Assembly: GCA_030682135.1 (NCBI GenBank)
Contig: JAUXQT010000073.1
Location: 1-53,141, forward strand
Length of the DNA stretch: 53,141 bases
Origin: Nitrospirota bacterium
GTDB lineage: Bacteria > Nitrospirota > Nitrospiria > Nitrospirales > Nitrospiraceae
Reading direction: 5' to 3'
Positions 1 to 51,886 of the stretch are shown here, in pieces. Below the pieces are notes generated by a model, which did not search any database, was not told where the DNA came from, and was given only the letters and a program-made list of their open reading frames with translations. Both the position numbers and the translations under genes were made by a program. The stretch's first letter is position 1, and every line of letters begins with the position of its first letter.

Positions 1-198
1 ACACCAGGTAAACGACGAATCGTAACGGTACTGGTCGTGATAGACCCGCTCCCAGGACCGATCCGGATAGTCCCCTAACGGGTTCCCGACTTCGATGACC
101 GGCTGGAGCGCGGTCAACGCCAGGACTTTGTCCGCCACCGCGACGGCGGCGACCGTCCCCACGGAGACTTTTAAGAACTGCCGACGTGACAAAAACAT
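1..198 (-). CDS. nxrA: Nitrite oxidoreductase alpha subunit, N-terminal fragment
   Basis: Only the first 66 codons lie in the window; the gene runs off the left edge. The start is an ATG at 198-196 with AGGAGG at 212-207, eight bases upstream. The protein opens with MFLSRRQFLKVSVG, a twin-arginine (SRRxFLK) signal followed by an alanine/valine-rich stretch, so the subunit should be exported folded by the Tat system. The sequence after it (GNPLGDYPDRSWERVYHDQY, then YRYDSSFTWC) matches my memory of Nitrospira NxrA, the molybdopterin subunit that oxidises nitrite to nitrate on the periplasmic face and passes electrons to NxrB. The visible piece ends just before the region expected to bind the first Fe-S cluster. 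The assignment rests on recall of the family N-terminus, not on catalytic residues. Another exported type II DMSO-reductase-family oxidoreductase is the main alternative. Confidence 0.82.
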   Translation of the reverse strand, partial: MFLSRRQFLKVSVGTVAAVAVADKVLALTALQPVIEVGNPLGDYPDRSWERVYHDQYRYDSSFTWC

Positions 199-395
199 GG
201 GTAACACCTCCTAAGAGTTGAGGGCTTCAATAAGCCCACGCGACTTCACCGACGCACAGCGGAACGTTCAGACCACCCCCCTTCCTTCAGACAGAGCGAT
301 GCCAGAAAACAGAATAATCGAATAGTTTTCGAACGACGTTTCGGCCGAACTTATCGATTTATTATGAATACCTAGCATCATGGGCCTTCTAAGTT

Positions 396-412
396 CGCAA
401 TATTCGCACCAA
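396..412 (-). promoter_or_regulatory. Sigma54-like (-24/-12) promoter reading toward nxrA
   Basis: On the minus strand the sequence is TTGGTGCGAATATTGCG. It keeps the GG and GC doublets exactly ten bases apart and the TTGG and TTGC cores, as in the RpoN consensus TGGCACG-N4-TTGC. Two bases of the CACG block and the last base differ. The transcription start would fall near 385. I see no better sigma70 pair in the leader. Function is inferred from the motif only. Confidence 0.5.
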
Positions 413-600
413 CTAAAGGAAACCATACGTCCATGAATAATCAATGTAAGTAGCAGATATATATAATAAATATTGAAATTCTAAGGCCTTTTAAATTGCG
501 ACTGAATCTTCGCATGTGGGTACTCGCCGTACCACTTTCTCAAAAAAAAGCTGTGATATTAAAAAACTATCTATAAATCAATAGCTTGAGCCAGAACGTC

Positions 601-681: not shown

Positions 682-710
682 TTGACAGTCTCGTTCCTAC
701 TCAGTAGAAT
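682..710 (+). promoter_or_regulatory. Sigma70 promoter for tRNA-Gly
   Basis: TTGACA (682-687) and TAGAAT (705-710) are separated by 17 bases, a near-consensus pair. The -10 box ends 27 bases before the first tRNA base, so the start site would lie about 20 bases upstream of the mature 5' end. Confidence 0.8.
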
Positions 711-737: not shown

Positions 738-812
738 GCGGGAATAGCTCAGTGGTAGAGCATCGCCTTGCCAAGGCGAGGGTCGCGAGTTCAAATCTCG
801 TTTCCCGCTCCA
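738..812 (+). tRNA. tRNA-Gly (GCC anticodon)
   Basis: The cloverleaf can be drawn by hand. The acceptor stem is GCGGGAA/TTCCCGC, the D-arm contains AGCTCAGTGGTAGAGC, and the anticodon stem TCGCC/GGCGA closes the loop TTGCCAA with anticodon GCC. The T-arm is GCGAG-TTCAAAT-CTCGT. The discriminator base is T and the 3' CCA (810-812) is encoded in the DNA. It is a single-gene unit with its own promoter. I see no integrase or duplicated 3' end nearby, so it does not mark an island junction in this window. Confidence 0.96.
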
Positions 813-51563: not shown

Positions 51564-51886
51564 CTACTATGACCACTACAGGAAGCCTTCCTGCGAGACA
51601 AGAAGTTTTCAGATCTTCCTAAAGCAGCCAATTATCACCGGTTGACTCAGCCCCCAACAGATCTTGAGCCTTTGCTACCGACCACAGCGATCGCCGTCAA
51701 AGCACTGCAACTGTGCTCCCTGCATTCCATGAAAAGTCACAGGTGTAATATTTATACAACGTCACTCACAGCAAGGGATGTGCCTATTTTTACGTTTAAT
51801 TTCAGTGCATTACCGTTGTTTAACCTCAATGAAAATCTCTGGCACACGAGTTGCTGATACCATCTGTGTAATTATTGAGGTGACCT
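51564..51886. other. Intergenic region upstream of lpxC
   Basis: These 323 bases contain no supported gene. They hold the lpxC sigma54 promoter near the right end and, at 51701-51717, a 5-bp inverted repeat AGCAC-N7-GTGCT centred about 157 bases before the predicted start, a possible activator site. No clear terminator follows the response regulator. Confidence 0.55.
51839..51855 (+). promoter_or_regulatory. Sigma54 promoter of lpxC
   Basis: CTGGCACACGAGTTGCT matches the RpoN consensus YTGGCACG-N4-TTGCW at every position but one: the GG and GC are ten bases apart and only the base after CAC differs. Transcription would start near 51866, leaving about 20 bases and a GAGGTGACCT ribosome site before the GTG start of lpxC. 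Confidence 0.78.

Follow-up and report, generated by a model that had tools for sequence, protein, structure and literature searches.

The minus-strand site at positions 396–412 is, with high confidence, the −24/−12 promoter of nxrA, and it would function in an enhancer module together with an AAA+ activator supplied in trans. The window, the whole stretch of 53,141 nucleotides analyzed here, begins inside nxrA, and only 66 codons of this gene are visible. The initial annotation had described a GG-N10-GC motif of the RpoN type on the minus strand, pointing at nxrA from about 200 bases away. Both descriptions hold. The minus-strand sequence from 412 to 396 (TTGGTGCGAATATTGCG) is an exact GG-N10-GC motif, with the GG at 410–409 (−25/−24) and the GC at 398–397 (−13/−12), and its center is located about 200 nucleotides upstream of the nxrA start codon (198–196). 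The site also fits the full RpoN consensus TGGYRCR-N4-TTGC, as both the TGG and the TTGC context are present. From the sequence comparisons, it appears to belong to a larger enhancer module, with the following elements.

1–198, minus strand: 5′ end of nxrA, 66 codons with a Tat signal, truncated by the contig start.
199–385, minus strand: predicted 5′ untranslated leader of about 187 nucleotides, from geometry, if transcription starts 12 nucleotides past the −12 element.
207–212, minus strand: Shine-Dalgarno sequence AGGAGG, from sequence.
222–237, minus strand: leader hairpin GGGCTT-ATTG-AAGCCC, just 5′ of the Shine-Dalgarno sequence; the stem sequences vary among relatives.
396–412, minus strand: sigma-54 promoter TTGGTGCGAATATTGCG, from sequence, scans and leader comparison.
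447–459, minus strand: proximal IHF-like position TATCTGCTACTTA, degenerate in the window copy; relatives have TTCAATNNNTTA.
516–535, no strand: second, proximal dyad GTGGGTACTCGCCGTACCAC with core GGTAC-N5-GTACC, kept in close relatives.
576–588, plus strand: exact match to the IHF consensus WATCAANNNNTTR (AATCAATAGCTTG), a conserved site at about −180 relative to the GG.
601–624, no strand: distal activator-type perfect dyad AAGTGCTACC-TTTT-GGTAGCACTT, whose core is GCTAC-N6-GTAGC; it is located about 210 bp 5′ of the GG.
738–812, plus strand: divergent tRNA-Gly(GCC), the syntenic upstream neighbor.

Taken by itself, the window provides modest, suggestive evidence for a sigma-54 promoter. 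The bare GG-N10-GC motif is common, with 11 occurrences in 1.7 kb against 14 expected. The strict pattern TGGYRCG-N4-TTGC is found once in the 53-kb window (0.15 expected), and its 11 matches genome-wide, compared to 7 for the reversed control, are not a clear enrichment. The base following TTGC is a G in the window copy, while the RpoN consensus prefers A or T; this G is common to 32 of the 93 conserved sites described below. A transcript start elsewhere with a sigma70 box had been named as a finding that would speak against the site; the scan of minus-strand positions 190–740, from nxrA to the tRNA gene, gave no sigma70-type match. A NifA-type regulated promoter was ruled out, as the NifA site TGT-N10-ACA has no match in the 1.7 kb. 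Elsewhere in the window, a sigma70-like TTGACA-N17-TAGAAT (11/12; 682–710, plus strand) precedes the divergent tRNA-Gly(GCC), and a strong sigma-54 match, TGGCACACGAGTTGC (51840–51854, plus strand), is located 33 bp ahead of the listed lpxC start.

The stronger evidence comes from other nxrA leaders, where conservation of the GG and GC positions had been proposed as a check. The nxrA starts were taken from 175 Nitrospiraceae genomes together with named records, and yielded 146 unique leaders, which fall into 126 clusters. GG-N8-TTGC is found on the sense strand between −300 and −90 in 93 of the 126 clusters, and this check was passed strongly. In the same clusters, other spacings give 2–13 matches and the antisense strand 2, and dinucleotide shuffles of the leaders give a mean of 7 and a maximum of 13. 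Positions that were not selected for also match the RpoN consensus, with a T before the GG in 80 of the 93 sites and a pyrimidine after it in 83. The density of sites peaks at 5.9 per kb between −200 and −100, compared to 1.3 between −300 and −200 and 0.1–0.6 in other stretches or antisense. The leaders share descent, and the counts are therefore not independent events, but the spacing and strand controls share the same relatedness. An alignment of 15 leaders from the same genus shows diverged DNA in which conservation is concentrated in blocks, namely the promoter, the two dyads and the IHF-like sites. These counts indicate that the site is conserved in nxrA leaders far beyond chance, in support of sigma-54 control of this gene, and make the case stronger than the initial annotation had put it.

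In the remaining 33 clusters, GGCA-N6-TTGT is present in 13 and GGCA-N6-[CG]TGCA in 8; these are descriptive counts for variants that were defined after inspection of the leaders lacking TTGC. In a spacing test, TTGT was found 17 times at N8 and 3–8 times at other spacings. With the variants included, a sigma-54-type site is present in 114 of the 126 clusters, and 12 have no recognized site.

The distal dyad at 601–624 is a putative activator-binding site. In this genus, its core, GYTAC-N6-GTARC, begins 209–216 bp upstream of the GG. Forty-five clusters carry the distal dyad, and the elements around it are held at fixed positions: WATCAANNNNTTR is found in 19 of them (1.4 in shuffles) and TCAANNNNTTR in 27 (5.3 in shuffles). 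The proximal type of dyad, GNTAC-N5-GTANC, is found in 7 and at no other spacing. The two subunits of IHF are encoded in the genome, with the alpha subunit scoring above and the beta subunit slightly below the NCBIfam cut-off. The distal dyad occurs only twice in the 3.7-Mb genome, first in the nxrA leader and again in the terminal part of a pilus-type coding region. Two small genomes (G113 and G173) have it just once each, at nxrA. Other genomic copies of the dyad were rejected as members of a regulon, as the second match in the genome lies inside the end of that coding region; the matches inspected in relatives mostly fall within or close to coding regions, and the same gene does not recur among them.

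The hairpin ahead of the Shine-Dalgarno sequence is found in 46 of the 126 leaders, compared to 11 in shuffles, and its stems (GGGCTT/AAGCCC, GGGCTG/CAGCCC and GGGCTC/GAGCCC) recur across promoter classes. Apart from the tRNA, no Rfam match was obtained for a structured RNA in the leader, and the folding energy of the leader is unremarkable (z of −0.8). A structured leader RNA was rejected, with the small hairpin alone being found.

The nxrA copies fall into several promoter classes. The window copy belongs to class A, which has the TTGC promoter and the GYTAC dyad and often adjoins tRNA-Gly. None of the 42 class A copies has an adjacent activator gene in the 5 kb upstream, or in as much of it as was available. 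Class B has the promoter CTGGCARC-N4-CTTGCT and an adjoining activator gene. Class C combines GGCAY-N5-TTGT with a GTCAG-N6-CTGAC dyad, and class D combines GGCAY...TGCA with a CCACGA-N4-TCGTGG dyad. All 19 copies with class C or D dyads have an adjoining activator gene (12 to 0 and 7 to 0, respectively). Another 23 TTGC clusters lack both a recognized dyad and an adjoining activator gene.

The second nxrA copy of the same genome (on contig C32) is of class B, and genes for a response-regulator activator and a CHASE3 kinase lie upstream of it. The two copies are identical at 197 of the 198 coding bases in view and at 87 of the 88 nucleotides of leader that they share, and are unrelated further upstream. 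The promoters are thus unlike, while the gene has been kept alike. Positions 1–286 of the window correspond to 1–286 of the other contig (L025), with the same codon at the end of both contigs; the assembly was probably interrupted there by the nxr repeat.

The search for RpoN and for an activator gene nearby, also suggested by the initial annotation, succeeded in its first part only. A complete RpoN, with activator-interacting, core-binding and DNA-binding domains, is encoded in the genome, as are 21 clear sigma-54 activators (PF00158 matches), but no sigma-54 activator gene is located on the window contig. The activator of the window copy would therefore act in trans. Small class A genomes hold very few activators, and those that recur are orthologs of three activators of this genome: the AtoC-like L010, L011, and the NtrX-like L013. 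All three groups survive the phylogenetic profile, each being absent from one class A genome; a choice by profile alone was abandoned, as the groups fit equally and the recognition helix of each is nearly unchanged in a genome without class A, which leaves no unique answer.

L011 is a 479-residue response regulator (L315:17325–18764) whose partner is a histidine kinase with a dCache sensor and PAS domains. The orthologous kinase-regulator pairs of N. moscoviensis and genome G001 are located in the nxrC-torD cluster, next to genes for an nxrC-type subunit, a TorD/NarJ-type chaperone and a ferredoxin-like protein. G001 is a class A genome with only three activator genes, the L011 ortholog among them. 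An L011 ortholog was not found in the class A genome G113, rated 99% complete, and one is present in G048, where no class A copy was seen. L011 is the best candidate for the activator of class A nxrA, a choice that is somewhat more apt to be wrong than right. The cluster NITMOv2_3614–3631 has been reported to be diagnostic of nitrite oxidizers and to contain a two-component system (PMC12342949). From its position and content, the cluster around the L011 ortholog in N. moscoviensis is presumably the same one. Two other sigma-54 activators of this genome, L007 and L012, appear to have GAF-like N-termini, with clustered cysteines (CADCYKAADC... in one and CDVCRNRD... in the other, for which the N-terminus was partly seen), and may be sensors of redox state or NO.

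In the proposed mechanism, RNA polymerase with RpoN would use the −24/−12 site at nxrA. A hexameric AAA+ activator, for which L011 is the best candidate, would bind the distal dyad (601–624), aided by the proximal dyad (516–535). Bending by IHF at about −180 and −47 would help the activator to reach the polymerase across the loop, and the activator would then open the polymerase complex with ATP. Transcription would start near position 385, giving the leader of about 187 nucleotides. As a sigma-54 promoter and a putative distal activator site are conserved across the family, an ATP-driven activator very likely switches nxrA on. Nitrite or oxygen may be the signal.

It is highly improbable that nxrA is transcribed mainly from a nearer sigma70-type promoter, with the sigma-54 site being minor or vestigial. 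The leader is long, and nxr expression is high in cells growing on nitrite (PMC6606698), a level that a housekeeping promoter could reach as well. However, the scan of the minus strand gave no sigma70-type match, the sigma-54 block is kept amid diverged flanks, and elsewhere the site is swapped for other sigma-54 classes rather than lost. Even less credible, to the point of being nearly negligible, is a chance match or a motif shared just through recent common descent. The weak genome-wide excess of the strict pattern and the relatedness of the leaders would be compatible with it, but other spacings, with the same ancestry, reach only 2–13 of the 126 clusters and the antisense strand 2, and the flanks have diverged.

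The distal dyad might instead be bound by a repressor or another regulator. Binding of an activator to the dyad is a prediction, and a genome that has no such dyad at nxrA also encodes all three candidate activators. On the other hand, a dyad about 210 bp upstream, with intervening IHF-type sites, is in the position of an enhancer, and each class has its own dyad, with two classes always having an adjoining activator gene. We consider a repressor or other regulator unlikely, and favor the sigma-54 promoter with a distal activator site.

Sigma-54 −24/−12 promoters with distal activator sites and IHF are known at nifH and glnA. The nxrA promoter shares with them the GG-N10-GC motif with TGG and TTGC, the upstream dyads, the IHF-type sites and RpoN. 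In comparison, the target here is the main energy enzyme of a chemolithoautotroph, and the dyad is GYTAC-N6-GTARC instead of the TGT-N10-ACA of NifA systems. The type of mechanism is therefore ordinary for sigma-54, whereas the target and the class structure are not.

Sigma-54 control of nxr has been proposed from neighboring regulator genes, not from promoters (PMC6606698, PMC7522533, citing Lucker 2010 and Koch 2015), and no regulator was found near nxrAB_1 of N. moscoviensis (PMC6606698). The window copy is of this nxrAB_1 type, without a nearby regulator, yet it has a sigma-54 promoter and a dedicated dyad. The class B copy of the same genome and nxrA_2, nxrA_3 and nxrA_5 of N. moscoviensis have the same sigma-54 type of promoter, but with an adjoining two-component activator and unlike promoter and dyad sequences (CTGGCAAC-N4-CTTGCT, or GGCAY-N5-TTGT with GTCAG-N6-CTGAC). 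The literature searched, which did not include Lucker 2010 and Koch 2015, gave no description of nxrA promoters or dyads. The present analysis adds the nxr promoter classes and dyads; sigma-54 control itself had been proposed earlier.

By coordinates in N. moscoviensis (G086, NZ_CP011801), nxrA_1 is of class A, nxrA_2 and nxrA_5 are of class C, and nxrA_3 is of class B, with the match of copies to loci resting on gene order and published locus numbers. The histidine kinases at the class C loci examined (L195:13679–15736 and L197:5585–7606) adjoin nxrA and carry a PilJ domain, which is related to the NarX-type sensor fold. These domains have a motif like the nitrate-binding helix of NarX, hinting at nitrate or nitrite sensing. 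The published RPKM values are 486 for nxrA_1, 179 for nxrA_2, 13,027 for nxrA_5 and 19 for nxrA_3 (PMC6606698). The promoter classes offer a promoter-level reason for this differential expression.

A broader model is possible, though rather speculative. Nitrospira cells would drive near-identical nxrA genes with several exchangeable sigma-54 enhancer cassettes, and every cassette would have a dyad and an activator of its own. For the ancestral copy, linked to tRNA-Gly, control would be exerted in trans by the dCache-PAS two-component activator of the nxrC-torD cluster, which would co-ordinate the enzyme subunits and sense a signal in the periplasm, for example nitrite.

No nitrite oxidizers are more widespread than Nitrospira, whose genomes mostly hold several nearly identical nxr copies with presumably different roles. 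The activator of the regulator-free copy is now narrowed to three genes, and the family-wide map of sigma-54 promoters and dyads gives a predicted, testable switch for each nxr copy.
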